From an uncultured Pseudomonadota bacterium (GTDB lineage Bacteria > Myxococcota_A > UBA796 > GCA-2862545): DNA of 64,000 bases. Under the pieces are notes generated by a model, which saw only the letters and a program-made list of their open reading frames with translations, did not search any database and was not told the origin of the DNA. Shown here piece after piece: positions 19,166-34,888 of this stretch. How positions within the stretch are numbered: the first letter of the stretch is position 1; every line of letters starts with the position of its first letter. The position numbers were made by a program, and so were the translations under genes. The stretch spans positions 1-64,000 of the forward strand of contig CAIOSP010000073.1 in NCBI GenBank assembly GCA_903861005.1, given 5' to 3'.

Positions 19166-19480
19166 ATGCAGACCACCGAGCGCGCCACCTCCCAGTCCCT
19201 CAACCGCATCCCGGTGAAGGGCCACGGCCGCGACCACAGCAAGGACTTCTCCATCTGCGACGAGCCCACGCTCTCGCCGATGGAGCACGACCTGGAGGCC
19301 CGCCCTGCGCAGAAGACCGCTCTGGACCGCGGCGAGCGCGCGCACCGCCTCGGCACCCGCACCGACGTCTACGACGAGCCGGCGCCGGATGACTGGATGC
19401 TGGTCGCCGTCGGCCTCGGCATGTCGTCTTCCATGCTGGCCCTGCTGGTGATGCTGTTCAGCGGCTACGGCGCGGTCTGA
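19166..19480 (+). CDS. Small single-pass membrane protein, SGYGAV-tail family (copy 1)
   Basis: The 104-residue protein has a charged, hydrophilic N-terminal region and a single C-terminal membrane helix (about 78-97). It ends in FSGYGAV. Its last 41 residues align with those of the gene at 19641: the segment VYDEPAPDDWMLVAVG matches VYEESPSADWLLVTLG, and the last nine residues MLFSGYGAV are identical. I do not recognise the family. AGGA lies seven bases before the ATG. A C-tail anchor or a signal-arrest orientation is possible. It is followed by a G/C hairpin. Confidence 0.7.
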   Translation: MQTTERATSQSLNRIPVKGHGRDHSKDFSICDEPTLSPMEHDLEARPAQKTALDRGERAHRLGTRTDVYDEPAPDDWMLVAVGLGMSSSMLALLVMLFSGYGAV

Positions 19481-19640: not shown

Positions 19641-19853
19641 ATGAAGCCTTCGACCGCCTTCGCCGCGCCCCCCGACACCGCCCTGTCATTCCAAGAGGAC
19701 GAGCGCGGCCGCTCGGTCCGTTTGGGCGGCGGCCACGTGGTCTACGAGGAGAGCCCCAGCGCAGACTGGCTGCTCGTGACGCTCGGCGTCGGGGTCTGCT
19801 CGTCGATGAGCATGGTGCTGATGATGCTGTTCAGCGGCTACGGCGCCGTCTGA
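19641..19853 (+). CDS. Small single-pass membrane protein, SGYGAV-tail family (copy 2)
   Basis: This 70-residue protein is a shortened paralogue of the product at 19166. The N-terminal 28 residues are different; from VYEESP on it aligns closely, with one membrane helix (about 44-63) and the identical end MLFSGYGAV. The DNA of the last thirty bases is nearly the same in both genes, so the duplication is either recent or under strong constraint. No function is known. GCCAGCACC precedes the ATG, which is a weak ribosome site. The gene ends 55 bases from the convergent enoyl-CoA hydratase. Confidence 0.7.
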   Translation: MKPSTAFAAPPDTALSFQEDERGRSVRLGGGHVVYEESPSADWLLVTLGVGVCSSMSMVLMMLFSGYGAV

Positions 19854-24084: not shown

Positions 24085-25218
24085 ATGCGCCTGATCGTCG
24101 CCCTCGCGTTCGCCCTGACCGCCTGCCAGGGATCGCCTGACGCCACCGACGCCACCGACGACACCGACGTCGTCGCCGCCGACCCGGCCACGCCCGAGGC
24201 CTGGATCGACGCGCTGGCCGCGGTAGGCCCGTACCAGGTCGGCTTTCGCGAGACGTCGATCACGTACACCGACAAGCTGGGCGAGCCACGCACCATTCGG
24301 GTCGACATCTGGTACCCGACCGACGCCACGTCGGGCGCTGAGGCCAGCTACCTGGGCGGCGCCATCCCCGCGCCCGGCATCTGGCTTGAGCCCGAGCCGT
24401 CCGCCGGCAAGTTCCCGCTGGTGCTGTTCAGCCACGGCCACCAGGGTGGCGCCGAGAACCTGAGCCGGACGTTCGACCACATGGTCACGCACGGCTGGGT
24501 GGTGGTCGCCCCCGAGCACACCGGCGACACCACGTTCGACCTGGGCCAGCGCGACACGCAGATCTACTGGCGCCGCCCCACGGATGTGTCGGCGACGCTC
24601 GACCACGTGCTGGACGTCGACCCCATCTCCGCGCACCTGGACGGGCGCATCCTGGGCGTGGGCCACAGCTTTGGCGGCTACACCCAGTGGCCGCTGGCCG
24701 GGGCCCACTGGGACGTCGACGACATGATCGCCAAGTGCGCGACGGAGCCTGACGGCCTGTGCTCCACCTGGACCGACGCGGACGAGGCCATCTTCCGCGC
24801 GGGCGCGTCGGATGACCGCATCCAGGCGTTCGCCACCCTGTCCGGCGGCGACTTCGACCGCTTCAACGCGGTGGGCGTGGGCACGGTCGACCGGCCGATG
24901 ATGCTGGTCACGGGCGACCTCGACGAGGGCAACCCCGAGAAGACCGCGCAGTACTGGGACGCGCTGCCGACCGGCACCTACGTGCGCGCCACCCTGGCCC
25001 ACGGCGACCACCAGTCCTACGGCGACTACGCGGGCACCACGTCCATCCCCGGCACCAACCCCGACCACCTGGACGGCGAGCGCAGCCGCCGGATCACCGA
25101 GGTGCTGCTGGGCGCGTGGGGTGCGCGCGAGGTCTTGGGCAAGTCCAACCTGGACGGCGTGCTGGACGGCTCGGTCGAGATCGACTCGGATCTGACGGTG
25201 GAGACGCAGTCCCGCTGA
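24085..25218 (+). CDS. PAF-acetylhydrolase-like alpha/beta hydrolase lipoprotein
   Basis: The 377-residue product begins with a lipoprotein signal (ALTAC, cysteine at 14) and an Asp-Thr-rich linker (DATDATDDTDVV). The catalytic domain fits the platelet-activating-factor acetylhydrolase/dienelactone-hydrolase type: VDIWYPTDA, PLVLFSHGHQGGAEN, then the elbow GVGHSFGGYT (Ser195) with acid TGDLDEGN and histidine in AHGDHQSYGD. The protein is likely anchored to a membrane facing the outside. It would cleave small esters or acyl chains, but no substrate can be named. It is divergent from the cytoplasmic hydrolase upstream. Confidence 0.82.
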   Translation: MRLIVALAFALTACQGSPDATDATDDTDVVAADPATPEAWIDALAAVGPYQVGFRETSITYTDKLGEPRTIRVDIWYPTDATSGAEASYLGGAIPAPGIWLEPEPSAGKFPLVLFSHGHQGGAENLSRTFDHMVTHGWVVVAPEHTGDTTFDLGQRDTQIYWRRPTDVSATLDHVLDVDPISAHLDGRILGVGHSFGGYTQWPLAGAHWDVDDMIAKCATEPDGLCSTWTDADEAIFRAGASDDRIQAFATLSGGDFDRFNAVGVGTVDRPMMLVTGDLDEGNPEKTAQYWDALPTGTYVRATLAHGDHQSYGDYAGTTSIPGTNPDHLDGERSRRITEVLLGAWGAREVLGKSNLDGVLDGSVEIDSDLTVETQSR

Positions 25219-25265: not shown

Positions 25266-25312
25266 TCCCAAGGGACTTGGTTCGCCGCCGCAAGGATGAA
25301 CCTCCCTTGGGA
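25266..25312 (+). promoter_or_regulatory. Inverted repeat covering the ribosome site of the PhyH-type gene
   Basis: TCCCAAGGGA (25266-25275) is the exact reverse complement of TCCCTTGGGA (25303-25312), 27 bases apart. The right arm contains GGGA of the ribosome site just before the GTG at 25319, so the stem could hide it. It may instead be a protein-binding dyad. Confidence 0.4.
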
Positions 25313-25318
25313 GACGCC

Positions 25319-26113
25319 GTGCACCAGGACGCCGCGCAAGGGCTGAGCCCTGAGCAGGTCAAAGGGTACTGGGACGACGGGTTCCTCATCGGGATGCCGA
25401 TCTTCGACGCCGAGGAGACGCGCCAGATCCGCGAGGAATTCCTGGCGATCGAGGCGGAGCAACGCGCGGCGCACGGTGGCACCTGGGAGATCCGGCACCA
25501 CTACCCGTGGCAGACAGCCGACCACCCCATGAAGGCGCTCTACCACCGCATGGCGCTCAACCCGCGCCTGGTGGCGGCGGCCGCCGCCATCCTCGGTCCG
25601 ACCGTGCTCATCCGCAACTGCGACGTGTTCGTGAAGGAGCCAGGCGTGAGGCGCACGGTGGCCTGGCACCTGGACACCGCCATGCACGACGGCACCGAAG
25701 ACGCCTACCTGACCGCGTGGGTCGGCCTGGGCGAGGACGGCGCCAACGCGCACAACGGCGGCCTGCAGTTCCTGCGTGGTGGCCACCGGATCGACATCCC
25801 CGACCGCCCCGCCGACCGCCACCGCCTGAGCTTCACGTCTACGGCCATGACGATCGTGAAGCCGGAGTTGGTGGTGCAGACCGACATGCCCCAAGGCCAC
25901 GCGTCCTTTCACCACGCCTGTATGCCGCACTTCTCGGGGCCCGACCTGAGCCCACACCGCCGCATCGGCTTTGTGGTGCGGTTCATGGGCTCGGGCATCA
26001 GCGCCAACATGGCGGAGAGCGGCAGCGCCACGCTCGCGGCCGGGACGTACACCCGCACCGAGTTCGCGCTGAAGGACGACTTCCCCGTCACCTGGACACC
26101 GCAGATCCCCTGA
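25319..26113 (+). CDS. PhyH-type Fe(II)/2-oxoglutarate dioxygenase
   Basis: The 264-residue protein is of the phytanoyl-CoA dioxygenase (PhyH) family. The iron-binding HxD is His117-Leu-Asp119 in AWHLDT. The distal histidine and the 2-oxoglutarate arginine sit in SFHHACMPHFSGPDLSPHRRIGF (His198 or His199, Arg214/215), quoted in shortened form. The fold is complete and the length is usual. These enzymes hydroxylate, halogenate or epimerise small molecules or peptides. I choose GTG 25319 because GGGAG lies five bases upstream and the residues before it are atypical; a TTG at 25277 is the alternative. The radical SAM gene follows after 58 bases. Confidence 0.83.
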   Translation: MHQDAAQGLSPEQVKGYWDDGFLIGMPIFDAEETRQIREEFLAIEAEQRAAHGGTWEIRHHYPWQTADHPMKALYHRMALNPRLVAAAAAILGPTVLIRNCDVFVKEPGVRRTVAWHLDTAMHDGTEDAYLTAWVGLGEDGANAHNGGLQFLRGGHRIDIPDRPADRHRLSFTSTAMTIVKPELVVQTDMPQGHASFHHACMPHFSGPDLSPHRRIGFVVRFMGSGISANMAESGSATLAAGTYTRTEFALKDDFPVTWTPQIP

Positions 26114-26171
26114 CCGGCCCCCCGACGCGCACCCCACCGGCGAGGACGCCCCGCCGAACCTGGAGAGACCC

Positions 26172-27680
26172 ATGCTCGAACGCCGCAGCATCCCGATCCG
26201 GCCGATGAAACCCGCCACAGGGGGGCTCGGCTTCTTCCGGTTCGGGAAGGTGGGCGAGCGGGTCATCCTGACCAACGACGCCGGCCAGTGGCACACGCTG
26301 ACCCCGGACGACTTCCGCGCGTTCGTCGAGGGGAACATGCCGCCCGAGCACCCCCAATGGGCGGCGCTCACCCAGAAGTGCTTCGTCCGCCGCCCTGGCG
26401 ACGTGGTCGAGACCGCCGAGCGCATCCGCGACCGCTACGGGTTCCTGGGCCGCGGCCCGCACCTGCACGTCATCGTCACCACGCTGCGCTGCAACCAGGG
26501 CTGTGGCTACTGCCACGCGTCGCGCCTGCCCATGGACCGCCACGACGCGGACATGGACGTGGCGACCGCCCGCACGGTGGTGGAGCGCGTGCTCGACACG
26601 CCCAACCCCAACATCGTCATCGAGTTCCAGGGGGGCGAGCCCACCGCGGCGTTTGACGTGATCCAGGCGTCCGTCGAGCACGCCCGCGCCAAGAAGAAGC
26701 CGCACCAGAAGATCGTGTTCTCGCTGATCACCAACTTCACGTCGATGGACGAGGACAAGGCCAACTGGCTGATCGACAACGAGGTCCTGGTCTGTACCAG
26801 CCTGGACGGCCCGGAGGCGCTGCACAACGCCAACCGCGCGTGGACCGGCGGCGGCAGCGCCCAGGCGTCGGTGCTCAGCTGGATCAGCTGGTTCAACAAG
26901 GCCTACATCGCCCGCGGCAAGGACCCGGACCTGTGGCACGTGGACGCGCTGATGACCACCACCCGCGCCACGCTCTCGCAGTGGAAGGCCGTGGTCGACC
27001 TGTACGTGGGCCTGGGCATCCGCACCATCCACTTCCGGCCGCTCAACCCCTACGGGTTCGCCGAGAAGAGCTGGAACAAGATCGGCTACACCATGGACGA
27101 GTTCCTGGAGACCTACGCCAAGGTCCTGGACTACGTCATCGCGCTCAACCGGGACGGCATCTCCATCCAGGAGGGCACCGCCGCCACGTTCCTGCAGAAG
27201 CTGCTCACCCCGCACGACCCCAACTACGTCGACATCCGCTCGCCGTGCGGCGCGGGCACTGGCCAGGTGGCCTGGATGCACGACGGCAGCGTCTACCCGT
27301 GCGACGAGGCCCGCATGCTCGCCGCCACCGGCGACTCCACGTTCCGTCTGGGCGACGTGAACGAGATGAGCATGGCCGACGTGCTCATGCACCCCACCGT
27401 GAAGTCCATGGCGCTGGCGTCCACGCTCGACTCGCTGCCGATGTGCTCGGACTGCTGGGCCAAGCCGTTCTGCGGCGTGTGCCCCATCCACACCTGGCGC
27501 AACGAGAAGGACCTGTTCGGCCAGCGGCCCAAGTCGTCCATGTGCCACCGGTTCTACAAGACGTTGGAGATGTTGGTCGAGCGCATGGACCACGACCCAG
27601 ACGGCTCGACGCTGCGCGTGTTCCACCGCTGGACGCTGCGCCGCGAGCAGGTGCAGCACCCCGAGGACGCCTGCGCGTAG
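26172..27680 (+). CDS. HxsB-like radical SAM/SPASM peptide maturase
   Basis: The 502-residue protein is a radical SAM enzyme. The N-terminal 95 residues (VILTNDAGQWHTL...) resemble the accessory domain of HxsB from the His-Xaa-Ser system. The iron-sulfur motif is CNQGCGYC (Cys107, 111, 114). Other shared signatures are IEFQGGEPT, LMTTTRATL and FRPLNPYGFAEKSW. The C-terminal SPASM region has SPCGAGTGQ, GSVYPCDEARMLA, then CSDCWAKPFCGVCP and SSMCHRF. This is a fuller cysteine set than HxsB as I know it, giving two extra clusters. GGAGAG precedes the ATG. Maturases of this type modify ribosomal peptides, but no HxsA/C/D partner or clear precursor gene lies nearby. Confidence 0.8.
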   Translation: MLERRSIPIRPMKPATGGLGFFRFGKVGERVILTNDAGQWHTLTPDDFRAFVEGNMPPEHPQWAALTQKCFVRRPGDVVETAERIRDRYGFLGRGPHLHVIVTTLRCNQGCGYCHASRLPMDRHDADMDVATARTVVERVLDTPNPNIVIEFQGGEPTAAFDVIQASVEHARAKKKPHQKIVFSLITNFTSMDEDKANWLIDNEVLVCTSLDGPEALHNANRAWTGGGSAQASVLSWISWFNKAYIARGKDPDLWHVDALMTTTRATLSQWKAVVDLYVGLGIRTIHFRPLNPYGFAEKSWNKIGYTMDEFLETYAKVLDYVIALNRDGISIQEGTAATFLQKLLTPHDPNYVDIRSPCGAGTGQVAWMHDGSVYPCDEARMLAATGDSTFRLGDVNEMSMADVLMHPTVKSMALASTLDSLPMCSDCWAKPFCGVCPIHTWRNEKDLFGQRPKSSMCHRFYKTLEMLVERMDHDPDGSTLRVFHRWTLRREQVQHPEDACA

Positions 27681-27731
27681 GCGGCGCGTTGTCCGGCTGT
27701 GCCCCGCGCGACCACAGGGATACGCGCGGGC

Positions 27732-28964
27732 ATGAACCTGGAAGACCTACAGCCGCTAGGCTTGGTCGCGGGGCCCTTGCTCGTGGGCGCAGGCCTGCGC
27801 GCGGCCGTCCCGGCCCGGTGGGCGCTGCCGGCGATCGGCGCGTTGACGGCGGCGCTGCTGTTCGCGTCGCTGCAGGCGTCATGGCTCAACCCGGCGGACG
27901 TGCTGCTGTCGGCCCTGCTGGCAGGGCTGGGCGTGTGGGTCGCGGGCCAGTCGAACGGGGAGCGCCGACTGGCGGCCCTGGGCGGCGTCCTGCTGTTCAC
28001 AGCGACCGGCGAGGGCGCGGCCCGGCTGACCACGTCGCCGATGCCGGGCGAGCCGTCGCCCCTGGCGATCGACCTGGAGAACATCTCGTCCTTCTGCACC
28101 GCACAGGCCACCCGCCAGCCCCAGCCGCTGCCGACCGACTCGCACTACGTGCTCCACCTGGGCGACTCGATGATCGCCTGGGCGCCGGCCGACACCGCCC
28201 TGGCGATCGCGCGACTGGACGCCACCGACATCCACGCCCACGTGCAGGCGGGCATCGTGGGCACCGGCCCTGACTGCGCGCTGCTGGTGCTTCGCGACAT
28301 GCCGCCCGCCGACCTGGTCGTCCTGCACCTGTTCGCGTTCAACGACCTGGCCGACCTGGACGCGGGCTACGCGTGGTGCGACGGCCAGTCGCTGTTCGAG
28401 TACGACACCCACCCGCCCACCCTGCGCTGCCCGGACGGCCCCGCAGGCGCGTTGGGCGTCACCGGGCGGGTGATGGCCACGCCGGCGCCGTGGGTGCTCC
28501 GCTGGGCGCGGTCGAAGTCGGCGATGGCCGTGCTGCTGACCGACACCTGGGAGGCGGCCCGATACGCGTGGCCGGGCGCAGACCGCCGCATGCGCAACGA
28601 CCGCGAGGAGGCACGGCTGGCGAACCTGACGAGCATTCTGCGGATGACCCAGGACGAGGTCCGCGCGCGCGGCGGGACGCTCGTGGTGTCGCTGGTCCCG
28701 GTCCGCAAGCAGTGGCTCGACCCGACGATGGAGGATCGCCTGACGCGGATGCGCGCCACGCTCGACCCGCTGGGCGTGCCCACGATCGACGCGTCTCATC
28801 TGCTGGCCGACGCGGAGGACGCGGGCGTGTCGCCGAACGTGATCTACGCGAACGAACGCCCCGGCGACCCGCACTTGGCGGAGGAGGGGCAGCGTCGGTA
28901 CGCCGCGTGGCTCGCGGAGGCCCTGGCGCCCTGGCTGGCCGTGGTCCCGCGCCGCGCGCCCTGA
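27732..28964 (+). CDS. Membrane-anchored SGNH-type hydrolase
   Basis: This 410-residue protein has three or four N-terminal membrane segments (within 8-95). A globular domain with SGNH hydrolase marks follows: the GDS nucleophile block in LHLGDSMIAW (144-146), an Asn block in LFAFNDLADL, and a C-terminal Asp-x-x-His in GDPHLAEEGQ (about 383-391). The region between has cysteines that could form disulfides. Such enzymes deacylate or acylate sugars or peptides in the periplasm. It lies 51 bases after the radical SAM gene on the same strand, so it may belong to the same unit, though the link is inferred. Its stop forms a short stem with the convergent gene. Confidence 0.75.
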   Translation: MNLEDLQPLGLVAGPLLVGAGLRAAVPARWALPAIGALTAALLFASLQASWLNPADVLLSALLAGLGVWVAGQSNGERRLAALGGVLLFTATGEGAARLTTSPMPGEPSPLAIDLENISSFCTAQATRQPQPLPTDSHYVLHLGDSMIAWAPADTALAIARLDATDIHAHVQAGIVGTGPDCALLVLRDMPPADLVVLHLFAFNDLADLDAGYAWCDGQSLFEYDTHPPTLRCPDGPAGALGVTGRVMATPAPWVLRWARSKSAMAVLLTDTWEAARYAWPGADRRMRNDREEARLANLTSILRMTQDEVRARGGTLVVSLVPVRKQWLDPTMEDRLTRMRATLDPLGVPTIDASHLLADAEDAGVSPNVIYANERPGDPHLAEEGQRRYAAWLAEALAPWLAVVPRRAP

Positions 28965-29481: not shown

Positions 29482-30203
29482 GGGGTCCCCGCGAGCACGA
29501 TCGCGCGCTCGGCTGCGTCCAGGGTGGGCAGGCAGGCCTGGCTTCCGGGCGTCATCAGGCCGCCGACGCGGCCGCTGTGCGACAGGCCAAAGGCGTGGCC
29601 TAGCTCGTGGGCGAGCGTGGTGTCCGGGTGGCTGGCGGGGATGCGCCGCGCGGCGTCCACGCCGGCGAACACCACGGGGTCGGCGTCGATCGGGGCGTTC
29701 ACCGCGTGGGCGACCGCGCCGTCGTCGCCGGGCATCCAGGTGTAGCCATCGAGCGCGTCGAGCGACCGCGCGATCGGCGAGGCGGGGTCGAGCACGGTGG
29801 GCATGAGGACGACGACCACGCCGCCGCGTGCCGGGGTCGCGTGCTCCCAGACCAGGCCCCGGATGGGCGCGGTCCATTCGAAGGGGTCGGAGCCCGCCGC
29901 CACAAACGCGGCCGTCGATCGGGTGTGGCCAAAGCGCGGGTCGATCTGCAGCGACACGCCCTCGCGTCGCCACAGGGTCCGCGCGATGGCCAAGCGCTCG
30001 GTCGCCTGCTCCACGGTCACGCCTGGGCCCAGCACCACACGCACCGACACCGCGCGCGACGGCCACTCGGCTGGGGCCAGCTCGGACGGGCAGGACGCGA
30101 TGTCGACGTCGGGAGTGGCCGCGACGGCCACGACCTCCGGCGCGGGCGCGGCGGGCGGTCCGGCGCAGGCGAGCAGCGCAACGACGGCCCAGGTCGGCTT
30201 CAC
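29478..30203 (-). CDS. Metzincin-like metallopeptidase lipoprotein
   Basis: The 241-residue protein carries a lipoprotein signal (VVALLAC, Cys13). Near its end it has the metzincin zinc-binding motif HELGHAFGLSH (199-209), the Glu being catalytic, with the family's Met-turn in GGLMTPG (Met217). The rest of the sequence shows the predicted strand-helix layout of a short archaemetzincin or matrixin-like domain. It may trim surface proteins or peptides. The GTG start overlaps the cytochrome stop by GTGA, with GGGAG five bases upstream. It is the fourth gene of the lipoprotein operon. Confidence 0.82.
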   Translation of the reverse strand: MKPTWAVVALLACAGPPAAPAPEVVAVAATPDVDIASCPSELAPAEWPSRAVSVRVVLGPGVTVEQATERLAIARTLWRREGVSLQIDPRFGHTRSTAAFVAAGSDPFEWTAPIRGLVWEHATPARGGVVVVLMPTVLDPASPIARSLDALDGYTWMPGDDGAVAHAVNAPIDADPVVFAGVDAARRIPASHPDTTLAHELGHAFGLSHSGRVGGLMTPGSQACLPTLDAAERAIVLAGTP

Positions 30204-31564
30204 AGCGGCTCCCAGGTGACGTCCGCGCTGGCCGCGTCCATGTCGACGATGCCCAGGCGCGGCACCAGCGCGTCCAGGCCCAGCGCCCGCAGCAGGAAGG
30301 GACCGAGCGGGCGGAAGCGCAGGCGGGCGGTGGCCTGCAGGGGGGCCGCGGCGTTGGCGGGGACCGGCACGAAGTAGCGGAAGGTGCGCTGCACGCCCGC
30401 GGGGATGGCGGTGCTGCTGTGGTCGGCGGCCAGCCAGGGGAAGAGCGTGGGCTCGCCCGCCGGGTCTACGAAGCCCGAGCCGATCGTGACCAGGTCAGCG
30501 TCGCCGTAGGGGTCCAGGCCGGACCAGCGGTTGCGGAGGTCGCCCTGCGCGTCGAGGTCGCCGCTGACGTAGACGACGTCGCCGTTCGCGTCGGTGACGG
30601 TCAACTCGATCCACAGCTGACGGTTGAAGGTGGACCCGGTGGGGAGCGAGTGCCCGTCCACCTGGTTGACCACGGTGACGTCCAGGTCGAGCTCGCCGCC
30701 GGGCTCAGCACCCGGGCGCGCGTCCAGCGAGACGGTGGCCGCCGACCGGAGCAGGTCCGTGGTCGCGGCGATCAGCTCGCCGCGGGTGGCCTCGTCCACG
30801 AAGTCGTCCTGGAGCGGCACGTCTACGCCGATGAAGCGGTGGCTGTGCAGCATCGGTCGGTCAGGCCCCTGCACCGCCGCCTTGCCCGCGCGGACCGGCA
30901 TGTGGCAGTCCTGGCAGGTGCGACCATCAGCGCCGGCGGGGCTCTCCAACCACTCGGCGTAGGCGCGCTCGAGCGGCAGGTCCGACACCTCGACGACGTC
31001 GTGGCAGCTGCCGCACAGCTCAGACTGCGCGAAGATCGGGGAGGCCTCGCTGCCGTGGGCGTCGGTGGGCGTGGAGTCGCTGAGCGGGCCGCGCAGGGGG
31101 CCGGTCGGGTCGAGCACGTGGCCCGCGTTGTTCTCGCGCACCAGCTCGGAGATGCGGTGGCAGGCCACGCAGGTCACGCCCTCGCGCACCACGGGCGACA
31201 GCGCGTCGAACGTGAAGCCAGGCCCGAACTCGCCGCCGCGCACGCCGATCGCGCTGTGGCACTGAATGCAGAACTGGGTCTGACGGCCGTCGTGGTTGGA
31301 CACGCGCACGCCGGACAGCGCCTGGAAGACCGGGTCGCGGATGGCGTCGGCGTGCTGCGAGCTGGACCACTCGGCCGCGTGGTCGGGGTGACAGGCGGCG
31401 CAGGTGGTCGACGTCTCAAAGTCCGCCGGGTCGAGGGTGGGCTCGGCGGGCCGGCTCAACGGGTCATGCGCCTCCAAGTCCACCGGCAGGTCGGTGTCGG
31501 AGGGCGGCGTGGGTTCCGGGCAGCCCGCCAGCAGCAGCGCGGACAGCAGGGCGGTGCGGTTCAC
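30200..31564 (-). CDS. Five-heme c-type cytochrome lipoprotein
   Basis: The 454-residue protein has a lipoprotein signal (ALLLAGC). The N-terminal half has five CxxCH heme motifs: CAACH, CIQCH, CVACH, CGSCH and CQDCH. The extra histidines (SSQHADAI, LHSHRF) could be axial ligands. The layout resembles the cytochrome c-554-like (tetraheme) family that transfers electrons in the periplasm. The C-terminal 200 residues are a beta-rich domain of unknown role (for instance TVVNQVDGHSLPTG). The GTG start overlaps the preceding stop by four bases. The di-heme oxidoreductase encoded upstream is a natural electron partner. Confidence 0.85.
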   Translation of the reverse strand: MNRTALLSALLLAGCPEPTPPSDTDLPVDLEAHDPLSRPAEPTLDPADFETSTTCAACHPDHAAEWSSSQHADAIRDPVFQALSGVRVSNHDGRQTQFCIQCHSAIGVRGGEFGPGFTFDALSPVVREGVTCVACHRISELVRENNAGHVLDPTGPLRGPLSDSTPTDAHGSEASPIFAQSELCGSCHDVVEVSDLPLERAYAEWLESPAGADGRTCQDCHMPVRAGKAAVQGPDRPMLHSHRFIGVDVPLQDDFVDEATRGELIAATTDLLRSAATVSLDARPGAEPGGELDLDVTVVNQVDGHSLPTGSTFNRQLWIELTVTDANGDVVYVSGDLDAQGDLRNRWSGLDPYGDADLVTIGSGFVDPAGEPTLFPWLAADHSSTAIPAGVQRTFRYFVPVPANAAAPLQATARLRFRPLGPFLLRALGLDALVPRLGIVDMDAASADVTWEPL

Positions 31565-33924
31565 AGGGTCTCCAAGAAGGCGACCAGCGCCTTGCGGCTG
31601 GCCTCGTCGAGGTCCTGGTAGGCGTCGCGGGACGTGGTGGCCTCGCCCGCGTGTTGGCGGATGGCGGTGTCCAGGTCCGCGGCCTCGCCGGAGTGCAGGT
31701 AGGGCGCCGTGCGGGCCACGCCCCACAAGGGCGCGGTGCGGAACGCGCGCATGTCCGCGGCGCCGTCCTCAATGCCCAGGGCGTCGTCGGGCAGGACCGT
31801 GTGGAGCAGCAGGTCCGAGTAGAGCGGCACCGGTCCGTTCTCGCCGGCCAGCGCCGGGACGTGGCAGAGCGCGCAGCCGACCGAGTGGAACAGGCCCTCG
31901 CCCGTGGCGGCCGCGGCGGCGTCCGTGGCGGGGGTGCGCGGGGGCGGGCCGAGCGACCGCAGGTAGTCGGCGAGCAGGGCCGTGTCGTCGAGGGTGAGCT
32001 CGGGGTCGGGGTGCCCGTCGTTGTCCTGTAGGCGGCCGAACGTCAGGCCGGGCTGAAGGGGGAGCGACAGGCCGATCTCCGTGCTGAGCGCGTCGCGAAC
32101 GAACTCGTCGACGGTGGGGACCTGGGACTTCCACCCAAAGCGACCAACCCGGCCGCCGTCCACGATGGCCACGCGGCCGCGGATGCCGTCGTGGTCGCGC
32201 GCGTCGTCGGGGTCGGCGTTCGCGGCGATCACCTCGTCCGGGATGGAGTCGATGAGGCCCAGGCCGAACAGGTGCGGCGTCTGGCGGTGCTCGAAGATCG
32301 CCGCCTCGGCCTGCGGTCGAACGGCCACGTCGGACAGGATGGTCTGCTTGTGCAGGATGGTGCCGACGTAGGGCTGGGCGAAGTCGCCGCCGGGCGTGAT
32401 CACGCCGTGGCGCATCACGTTCACGTCCAGGGGGCCCGCGCCGCCCAGCACAGGGTCAAAGTGGCAGGCACGGCAGGAGTCACCGTTGAAGCGCGGCCCT
32501 CCCACGCCGTCCTCGCGGCCAAAGTCGCGGTCGAACAGGGCGCGTCCGGCCTCAAAGCGGACCAACGCGTCGCCCGTCAGCGCGGTGACCGGCCCGCCCC
32601 ACTCGCCCACCATGGGCGCGGGCGTGCCCGGCGGGACCAAGCCGTCCGTGCGCTGGGCCGCGCCGCCGAGCGACGCGACGAAGGCCAGCAGGTCCTCGCG
32701 ATCGCCGTCGTCCAGGGCCTTGTAGGCGTCGACCGCGGCCTTGGCCTCGCCGCCGTGCCAGCGGACGGCGCCGTCGAGCGTGGAGGAGCGACCGTCGTGC
32801 AGGTAGGGGCCCTCGGCGGTGACGCCCCACAGCGGCTGGGTGCGGAACTCGCGGCCGGTGGCCTCCTTCATGATCACGTGGTCGGCCAGGGCGTCGCCCA
32901 TGTCGTGCAGGAGCAGGTCCGAGTAGATCGGCAGCGCCCCGTGCGGGCCCTCCAGCCTGGGCAGGTGGCAAGCGTTGCAGCCGACCGTGTCGAACACGAC
33001 CGCGCCGTGCTTCGTCGTGGCGTCCAGCTCGTCGGGGCGCGGGCCCGCCAGCAGCATGGCGAAGGACACCAGGTCGAACAGGTCGTCGGTGGACAGCTCG
33101 GGGTCGGCGACGCCGTCGTCGTCTAGGGTGGGGCCGTCGGGTGCGGCCGCCTGGGCGAAGCGCAGCAGGTCGTCGACGAAGGCGCGCGTGCGGCTGTCGG
33201 CGGCGGCGTCCTGGGCGCTGGAGTCGACCGGCAGGGCGGCGCGCTGGTCGTCGGTGAGCGGGTCGGTGGTGATGCCCGCGTGGTTGAACAGCGGGCCGCG
33301 GATGAAGCCCTCGATCGACACCGTCTGGGCCTTCATCCCGAAGCGCCCGACGAAGCCGCGGTCGTAGTTGGGGCGGCCGCTGATCCCGTCGCCATCCTTG
33401 TCGTCGGGGTCCGAGTTCGCGAGGATCACGTCCTCAGGCAGCTCGGCGATCAGGCCCACGCCAAAGAACGGGATGGGGTTGCGCTGCGCGACGACGTTGA
33501 CCTCGTCGGGCACGGCGGGCCGGGCGATCCCTCCCTCGTTGGGGCCGTAGTGGTACATCCGCACCACGCCGCCCGCCATGCCGGCGCTCTCCGCGGGCAG
33601 GAAGGCGCCGTCTGACCCCACCACGGCGGACAGCAGGAAGTTGCGGTACAAGCCGGCCCCGCCGCCCACCAGCGGCTTCTCGTGGCAGCCCGCGCAGGAG
33701 CTGATGTTGAACGCGGGCCCCAGGCCGCCCGCGCGCGTGAAGCGCCGCACCGCCACGTCGTGGCCGCGCTGGAAGGTCGCGAGCTGGTCGTCGGTAGCAA
33801 AGCCGACCGGGTCACCCAGCGCGCCCGTCGCCTCCATCGAGTACGCCCCGTGCTCGCCGGGCACGGGGGGGTGGCAGGCGACCAGCGCCGTCAGGAAGAG
33901 GGGGAGCAGCGTCCTTAAACCCAT
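31561..33924 (-). CDS. Tandem di-heme oxidoreductase (DUF1111-like) lipoprotein
   Basis: This 787-residue protein is a duplicated di-heme oxidoreductase of the DUF1111 ('thiol oxidoreductase', MauG-like) type. After a lipoprotein signal (LTALVAC), each half repeats the same plan. The first has CAGCHEKPLVGGG and CNACHLPRL, the second CRACHFDPVLGGAG and CALCHVPAL, so four hemes in all. Both halves also share RVGRFGWKSQ/FVGRFGMKAQ and EFRTQPLWGV/AFRTAPLWGV with HDGRSSTLDGA-like loops. Normal members carry one such unit of about 400-500 residues; the fusion is unusual. It is the second gene of the operon. Confidence 0.85.
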   Translation of the reverse strand: MGLRTLLPLFLTALVACHPPVPGEHGAYSMEATGALGDPVGFATDDQLATFQRGHDVAVRRFTRAGGLGPAFNISSCAGCHEKPLVGGGAGLYRNFLLSAVVGSDGAFLPAESAGMAGGVVRMYHYGPNEGGIARPAVPDEVNVVAQRNPIPFFGVGLIAELPEDVILANSDPDDKDGDGISGRPNYDRGFVGRFGMKAQTVSIEGFIRGPLFNHAGITTDPLTDDQRAALPVDSSAQDAAADSRTRAFVDDLLRFAQAAAPDGPTLDDDGVADPELSTDDLFDLVSFAMLLAGPRPDELDATTKHGAVVFDTVGCNACHLPRLEGPHGALPIYSDLLLHDMGDALADHVIMKEATGREFRTQPLWGVTAEGPYLHDGRSSTLDGAVRWHGGEAKAAVDAYKALDDGDREDLLAFVASLGGAAQRTDGLVPPGTPAPMVGEWGGPVTALTGDALVRFEAGRALFDRDFGREDGVGGPRFNGDSCRACHFDPVLGGAGPLDVNVMRHGVITPGGDFAQPYVGTILHKQTILSDVAVRPQAEAAIFEHRQTPHLFGLGLIDSIPDEVIAANADPDDARDHDGIRGRVAIVDGGRVGRFGWKSQVPTVDEFVRDALSTEIGLSLPLQPGLTFGRLQDNDGHPDPELTLDDTALLADYLRSLGPPPRTPATDAAAAATGEGLFHSVGCALCHVPALAGENGPVPLYSDLLLHTVLPDDALGIEDGAADMRAFRTAPLWGVARTAPYLHSGEAADLDTAIRQHAGEATTSRDAYQDLDEASRKALVAFLETL

Positions 33925-33931
33925 GCTGTCC

Positions 33932-34888
33932 TCAGCGCGTCGAGCGCAGGAGCGCGACGCCGTCGAACGGCTCCGCGAACACCCCGCCCACCGCGTACGT
34001 GTTTCCCAAACCGTCCGACCACATCGCGTGCAGATCCAGGCCCGTAGACACGGCCTCCGGCGTCAGCGCGCCGGTCGCCACGTCGAACGTGCCGACGTAG
34101 CCGTAGACGCCGCCCACCACGGCCGTCTCCGGCCCCTCCATGGCGACAGCGTTGAGCCCGCCCACGCCGCTGGGCGCCAGCGTGTCCCAGGCCGACCCGT
34201 CCCAGGTGGCGACGCGCGCGTTGCTGCGCCCGCCCACCGCGACCATCTGGTCGGCGGACGTACCCCACAGGCTGACGAAGTCGTCGTCGGCCTTGGACCC
34301 CGCCGCCACCTGCTGCCACTCCGTGCCCAACCCCTGCACGATCAGCCCGCGCTCGCCGACCGCGAACAGCGTGCCGTCCACGCCCCACACCTTGAACAGC
34401 GAGGTGGCGCTGCGGTTGTTCTGCGTGGGCATGAGCGTGACCGGGCTGAAGCTCGACCCGTCCCAGTGCAGCAACACCGGCACGTCGTCGCCGACGTTGC
34501 CGCCTACGGCCCATAGGTCGTCGTTCGCGAACCCGAACACGCCCCACAGGTCCTCGGTGGTGCCGGTGGGCAGGTTGGCCCAGGCTTGGCCGTCCCAGCG
34601 CAGCGCCGTGCCGCCGCGTCCGACGGCGAACACGTCGTCCGGGCCGAACCCGTAGGCCCAGACCAGCAGGCCGGAGCCGTCGGGGACGTCCTCCTCGGCC
34701 CAGTTGTCCGCCGACCCGTGGAAGGCGCGGCCGCCGGTGGTGTCGCCGCCCACGATCCAGACGTCGTCCGGGCCGCTGCCCCACACGCCAGACAGGGCCG
34801 CGTCGCCGGAGACGGCGTCGAGCGTGCTCCAGGTCGCGGGGCCGCCGCAGCCGGCGAGCAGGAGGAGCGGGGCGAGGAGGCGGGGCAT
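33932..34888 (-). CDS. Beta-propeller lipoprotein
   Basis: The 318-residue protein has a lipoprotein signal (LLLAGC) and several repeats of 'WGxxxxDvWaVG' (GVWGSGPDDVWIVGG, GVFGFANDDLWAVGG, LWGTSADQMVAVGG), which build a beta-propeller found often in myxobacterial surface proteins. These are protein or ligand binders; no enzyme motif is seen. It ends seven bases before the di-heme gene and begins the operon of five lipoproteins. The promoter must lie in the 200 bases between 34889 and the toxin-antitoxin pair, where nothing obvious for this direction is seen. Confidence 0.78.
   Translation of the reverse strand: MPRLLAPLLLLAGCGGPATWSTLDAVSGDAALSGVWGSGPDDVWIVGGDTTGGRAFHGSADNWAEEDVPDGSGLLVWAYGFGPDDVFAVGRGGTALRWDGQAWANLPTGTTEDLWGVFGFANDDLWAVGGNVGDDVPVLLHWDGSSFSPVTLMPTQNNRSATSLFKVWGVDGTLFAVGERGLIVQGLGTEWQQVAAGSKADDDFVSLWGTSADQMVAVGGRSNARVATWDGSAWDTLAPSGVGGLNAVAMEGPETAVVGGVYGYVGTFDVATGALTPEAVSTGLDLHAMWSDGLGNTYAVGGVFAEPFDGVALLRSTR

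Follow-up and report, generated by a model that had tools for sequence, protein, structure and literature searches.

What does a radical SAM maturase modify when the partner genes that define its system are not beside it? The question is raised by a 64,000-nucleotide stretch of DNA (the window; contig CAIOSP010000073.1, positions 1 to 64,000) from the assembly GCA_903861005.1 of an uncultured bacterium placed in Myxococcota_A. The window has a guanine-plus-cytosine (GC) content of ~71% and is contig C73 of a 223-contig, 5.8-Mb assembly. In the labels used here, Gnnn denotes a genome (G000 is that of the window), Cn a contig, and Lnnn an HxsB or related locus. The window carries hxsB, a gene of the His-Xaa-Ser (HXS) system, between genes for a PhyH-family oxygenase and an SGNH-type hydrolase candidate (Table 1). 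The HXS system receives only brief mention in the parts of the literature consulted, and no paper stating its product was found in the open literature searched. The window hxsB is a second HxsB copy of its genome, apart from the canonical HXS set. There is about an even chance that it forms a maturase pair in trans with an unlinked HxsC-type enzyme encoded on contig C4, and the likely substrate of this pair is the repeat protein HxsA4.

By the curated criterion, the radical SAM protein is HxsB over its full length. It scores 468.9 bits against the HxsB equivalog model TIGR03978, whose curated cut-off is 370, with residues 21-487 of 502 aligned to model positions 3-465 of 466. Because the score exceeds the cut-off across nearly the whole model, the protein is HxsB and not merely similar to it. 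The first-pass annotation, made from the sequence alone, had recognized the HxsB domain and motifs and proposed this very search, which the protein passes, but it had gone no further than calling the protein HxsB-like. The radical SAM motif CX3CX2C is intact (C107, C111, and C114 in CNQGCGYC), and seven SPASM cysteines are present at positions 359, 377, 425, 428, 434, 437, and 458. The CteB/SCIFF maturases (PDB 5WGG) share this radical SAM and SPASM arrangement and align over residues 106-448. However, they belong to another family, and the window protein reaches 87 bits on the SCIFF model against a cut-off of 425.

The SPASM cysteines had earlier been described as extra, which is misleading. 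The HxsA-linked HxsB proteins of the window's order (L010, L048, L046, and others) have lost one to three of these cysteines, e.g., C377 to S, N, or D and C437 to R or Q, whereas the window HxsB and the other second copies in the order have kept every one. The full set is the common state in 80 further HxsB loci from several phyla, also beside HxsA and HxsD, in a scan whose patterns included the C377 region and were thus biased towards copies that keep C377. Since the full set is common beside HxsA and HxsD across phyla, the cysteines of the window protein are retained rather than extra. As a distinguishing mark of this protein they were rejected.

Are the other HXS genes really missing? The models used were NF038313 (HxsA4), TIGR03978 (HxsB), TIGR03977 (HxsC), and TIGR03976 (HxsD). 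No HxsA, HxsC-like, or HxsD gene was found within the window. A His-Xaa-Ser repeat of four consecutive units was also not found there, and its matches in the genome are confined to C93, the end of C168, and the start of C40. The absence reported by the first-pass annotation therefore holds for the window but not for the organism, since an HXS locus, a second HxsA4 gene, and an HxsC-type partner are present on other contigs. The locus on C93 (L010) is canonical: its HxsA4 (193.6 bits), HxsB (461.1 bits, slightly below the window copy), and HxsD (58.4 bits, cut-off 50) all pass, and it also has two further radical SAM genes that score under the HxsC cut-off. The further HxsA4 gene is present as two pieces at contig ends (L225, L224), an N-terminal half at G000:C40:1-478 on the minus strand and a C-terminal half at G000:C168:4577-4832, also on the minus strand. 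These are 5' and 3' parts with the break within the repeat, and it is likely, but not proven, that they are one gene broken in assembly. At the DNA level, the 5' part and the C93 gene are 92% identical, but their upstream regions differ. No other HXS gene was seen among the neighbors of either half. In other words, the window resembles the HXS system in that its protein passes the full-length HxsB cut-off and HxsA4 and HxsD are encoded elsewhere in the genome, but differs from it in having an hxsB with no linked HxsA, HxsC, or HxsD.

HxsB genes without linked HxsA or HxsD, usually located next to an HxsC-type radical SAM gene, form a recurring class, and the window hxsB is a member of it. Linkage was counted in 80 HxsB loci having at least 1.5 kb on both sides, with neighbors scored within 3 kb. 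HxsD was present in 66 of the 80, and 13 had neither HxsA nor HxsD. An HxsC-type gene was found in 8 of these 13 loci versus 3 of the 67 others. In three loci of the class (L075, L074, and L078), the reading frames of HxsB and the HxsC-type enzyme either overlap or directly adjoin, with hardly any room left by the flanking genes. As a result, the pair in these loci looks like one functional unit that has no linked precursor. The window HxsB groups with the same three loci in the HxsB tree with moderate support (87-93 in the Shimodaira-Hasegawa-like approximate likelihood-ratio test). In a further sister locus (L073:5623-18000, G058:C166), the HxsB/HxsC-type pair lies amid a GNAT gene, an additional radical SAM gene, and a very large gene that resembles polyketide synthase genes.

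Where is the HxsC-type partner of the window copy? Only one gene in the genome, at C4:7114-8004, strongly matches the HxsC-type partner in L075 (388 bits at 57% identity, whereas the second-best match reaches 115 bits). The C4 protein remains under the cut-offs of both HxsC (TIGR03977, 96.9 of 267.9 bits) and HxsC4 (NF038332, 167.6 of 500 bits), so it represents a group that is related to these families but has no name. In the HxsC-type tree, the C4 protein is a member of the clade formed by the L074, L075, and L078 partners (support 98/97), which mirrors the HxsB tree. A second clade, made up of L073, L062, and G044, is common to both trees. Furthermore, the two clades cut across taxonomy, as G051 and G058 are of one family and yet separate in both trees. 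The HxsC-type gene is present in only 9 of 63 genomes, and these 9 include each of the five genomes of the order in which this HxsB class occurs. A protein of ~480-500 aa adjoins HxsC-type genes in two genomes (L010:5774-7225, minus strand, and L173:2308-3813, plus strand); it has no Pfam or NCBIfam match, the likeness between its two copies was judged by eye only, and it is possibly an unnamed HXS component.

A short precursor linked to hxsB was rejected for lack of space and of any shared family of small frames. There is no room for one in the 58-bp gap between the PhyH gene and hxsB, in the 51-bp gap between hxsB and the SGNH-type gene, or in the tight sister loci. When reading frames down to 30 aa were clustered, no candidate precursor family was common to the window and the sister loci. 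Besides hxsB itself and frames antisense to it, the clusters that included the window contained a gene (33932-34888) that is weakly similar to one in L078. The survey of neighbors for a conserved short open frame, which the first-pass annotation had suggested, thus returned none shared with the window, while its idea of an unlinked precursor gained support. Because no precursor fits the tight gaps, the substrate gene probably lies at another place in the genome. A canonical HXS locus with HxsA is present in all five genomes of the order that have this HxsB class, and the two kinds of HxsB also occur together in three other assemblies (L078/L085, L109/L153, and L128/L086). This co-residence favors HxsA4 as most plausibly the substrate in trans.

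How would such a system work? The second HxsB would pair with the HxsC-type enzyme encoded at C4:7114-8004, and the two enzymes would act in trans as a maturase pair. Their substrate would most likely be HxsA4, a (His-Gly-Ser)n repeat protein encoded twice on other contigs. HxsA4 would be bound by HxsB through its leader-like N-terminal part, and the repeats would be modified by way of hydrogen abstraction that uses the radical SAM and SPASM iron-sulfur clusters of the enzyme. The neighboring oxygenase, which resembles ThoJ, would have been added in this lineage and may hydroxylate this peptide as well, histidine being a plausible site.

Several observations weigh against this model. The link between the pair and HxsA4 is inferred, as are the action in trans, any chemistry, and the role of PhyH. 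The N-terminal part of the second HxsA4 is nearly identical to that of the canonical one, and this gene may simply be a duplicate whose product the canonical enzymes handle. The window HxsB is on a long branch, its placement in the tree is moderately supported, and a smaller tree does not settle its position. Linkage of the two genes in four of the five genomes inflates the co-occurrence of HxsB class and HxsC-type gene (Fisher 1.8e-5), and the case for the partner therefore depends on the trees. The congener G001, whose assembly is 85% complete, has the HxsC-type gene, and no HxsB partner was found in it. Lastly, the likeness of the PhyH protein to ThoJ, described below, is even stronger in a PhyH paralogue on C151 that is not near HXS genes.

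A serious alternative, though one with less than an even chance, is that the three genes are neighbors by accident: a redundant HxsB, a PhyH enzyme of lipid or metabolite chemistry, and a cell-envelope SGNH esterase that share no function. As regards HxsB itself, this alternative is compatible with the trans-acting pair. Its main evidence is the lack of conserved linkage. No PhyH gene was found beside any of 117 other HxsB loci using phmmer and a seven-sequence profile, and no SGNH-type match was found at the same 117 loci by phmmer or profile. Both linkages were consequently rejected as conserved features. The first-pass annotation had staked its proposal on the conservation of these two neighbors, and the trio as a conserved system falls with them; a candidate peptide-modifying enzyme with an unlinked precursor and a ThoJ-like neighbor still stands. 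DNA of the congener also matches the region at the hxsB paralogue only. On the other hand, the hxsB gene has no look of decay, as its frame is uninterrupted, its third-position GC is 0.98, and all catalytic and SPASM cysteines are present. The short intergenic gaps on one strand likewise argue against chance.

The SGNH-type gene is most likely an unrelated neighbor outside the system. Its assignment as an SGNH enzyme is based on the GDS and GDPHL motifs of its product, whose similarity to AlgX is weak, scoring 17.6 bits on PF16822 against a gathering cut-off of 26.5. Its structure model has a mean predicted local distance difference test (pLDDT) value of 40, and no solved-structure relative was found by sequence. 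The family has one other member in the order (G008, 33% identity), which is followed by a small SxtJ-like gene and a carbamoyltransferase-like gene, as named from a reading of their sequences. This setting is a further point for chance neighbors. The window gene, unlike this sole homologue, has no such carbamoyltransferase and SxtJ genes beside it.

A doubtful but more specific possibility is that PhyH and HxsB form a module dedicated to this lineage, combining radical modification by HxsB with ThoJ-like histidine beta-hydroxylation on the same His-rich HxsA4. The two genes are adjacent on one strand. The assignment of the upstream gene to the 2-oxoglutarate oxygenases was borne out: it passes its Pfam model (Table 1), and the metal-binding HxD...H residues (H117, D119, and H204) and the 2-oxoglutarate-binding arginine (R215) are conserved. 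When the profile of the family was compared with the PDB, ThoJ was the best match at 138.9 bits, followed by 74.2 bits for the next. The fold comparison also placed ThoJ (6ZYL) first (Z 22.8 over 222 residues, 3.0 A), ahead of proline hydroxylase H11 (Z 20.7). The ThoJ homologue TsaJ is responsible for histidine hydroxylation of thiostreptamide S4, a ribosomally synthesized and post-translationally modified peptide (RiPP), and ThoJ is described as consistent with that role (PMC8153245). The PhyH protein thus shares fold and catalytic residues with these thioamitide histidine beta-hydroxylases and matches them best among solved structures, at ~22% identity. Moreover, the PDB ranking carries a bias from the choice of oxygenases with solved structures, and by fold ThoJ leads the proline hydroxylases by a small margin.

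At an E-value of 1e-40, the PhyH family was found in only 6 of the 379 genomes sampled from the phylum, and these 6 belong to a single order. The closest homologue (G012:C276, ~50% identity) has the HxsC-type genes of an HXS locus on the same contig ~7 kb away, which favors the module. However, the G012 gene overlaps a gene for an HpnN-like MMPL transporter, and this overlap suggests a lipid role for it there. Together with the missing linkage at the 117 other loci, it counts against the module, and joint action of PhyH and HxsB is conjectural. The most elaborate version, in which the ThoJ-like oxygenase, the SPASM-complete HxsB, and the unlinked HxsC-type enzyme would together modify HxsA4 in trans on its (HGS)n repeats, is an unlikely one. 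An exact 10-bp inverted repeat (TCCCAAGGGA/TCCCTTGGGA) lies upstream of the PhyH gene at 25266-25312, with its 3' arm over the likely ribosome-binding site; the folding z-score of this hairpin is just -1.3.

A substrate other than HxsA4, from a DUF1501 / DUF1549-DUF1585 / cytochrome c cassette, is improbable for the HxsB/HxsC-type pair. Such a cassette adjoins the HxsC-type gene on C4 (L172:7096-12282, G000:C4) and in the congener G001, and in the distant G044 it sits between the HxsC-type and HxsB genes (L192:5815-14131, G044:C334). None was seen in L062, L073, L074, L075, and L078, some of which are on short contigs. Cassettes of this kind are abundant in these bacteria and their recurrence may be due to chance, which also counts against them. 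The small SGYGAV-tailed proteins at 19-20 kb, proposed earlier as one idea for the precursor, are small, paralogous, located in the same window, and coding-like in third-position GC, but they were rejected as a very improbable precursor on their lineage-specific distribution (this genome only, including a partial third copy at G000:C111:7259-7357, apart from one marginal match among 60 genomes, and none in the sampled genomes with the same HxsB class), because the C-terminus shared by the copies is a predicted transmembrane helix, and because several unrelated genes intervene before hxsB.

The remaining features of the locus concern its layout (Table 1). The PhyH, hxsB, and SGNH-type genes are real co-directional coding genes, as was first proposed, judging from their coordinates, short gaps, and third-position GC. 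The first-pass annotation did not include a lipoprotein esterase gene that is co-directional with them and ends 100 bp upstream of the PhyH gene; the esterase and its downstream neighbors may be on one transcript. The third-position GC of all four genes is 0.92-0.98, as expected for real genes in a window of this composition. Slightly more than 1 kb past the SGNH-type gene, two heme-rich proteins with 5 and 4 CxxCH motifs are encoded on the minus strand (30200-33924). A comparison with PHROGs gave no matches.

Table 1. Genes of the hxsB locus and the small paralogues upstream of it, in window coordinates.
Feature	Position	Strand	Evidence
Tandem small paralogues, shared C-terminus ending SGYGAV	19166-19480 and 19641-19853	+	
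alpha/beta-hydrolase lipoprotein esterase (chlorophyllase/PAF-AH-like)	24085-25218	+	PF07224 33.7 bits, PF03403 28.8 bits, both above cut-off
PhyH-family Fe(II)/2-oxoglutarate oxygenase, ThoJ-like	25319-26113	+	PF05721 57.8 bits vs 22-bit cut-off
hxsB paralogue, radical SAM/SPASM maturase	26172-27680	+	TIGR03978 468.9 bits vs 370
Membrane-anchored SGNH-type hydrolase candidate	27732-28964 (alternative GTG start 27699)	+	GDS + GDPHL motifs; PF16822 sub-cut-off

What does this locus mean for the family? The window most likely holds an orphan HxsB whose partner, an HxsC-type enzyme, and whose substrate are both encoded at unlinked sites, a variant of the unsolved HXS system. It belongs to a recurring class that has no HxsA or HxsD and is paired with an HxsC-type enzyme, and current models call the window member an ordinary HxsB. 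The HxsB/HxsC-type pair can be split over distant loci and, as a result, searches for precursors among neighboring genes alone will fail. A chemical hint comes from the ThoJ-like oxygenase beside HxsB, as the same genome has two genes for the His-rich HxsA4. If joint decoration were true, the product would be a long repeat protein bearing both beta-hydroxylated and radical-modified histidines or serines.

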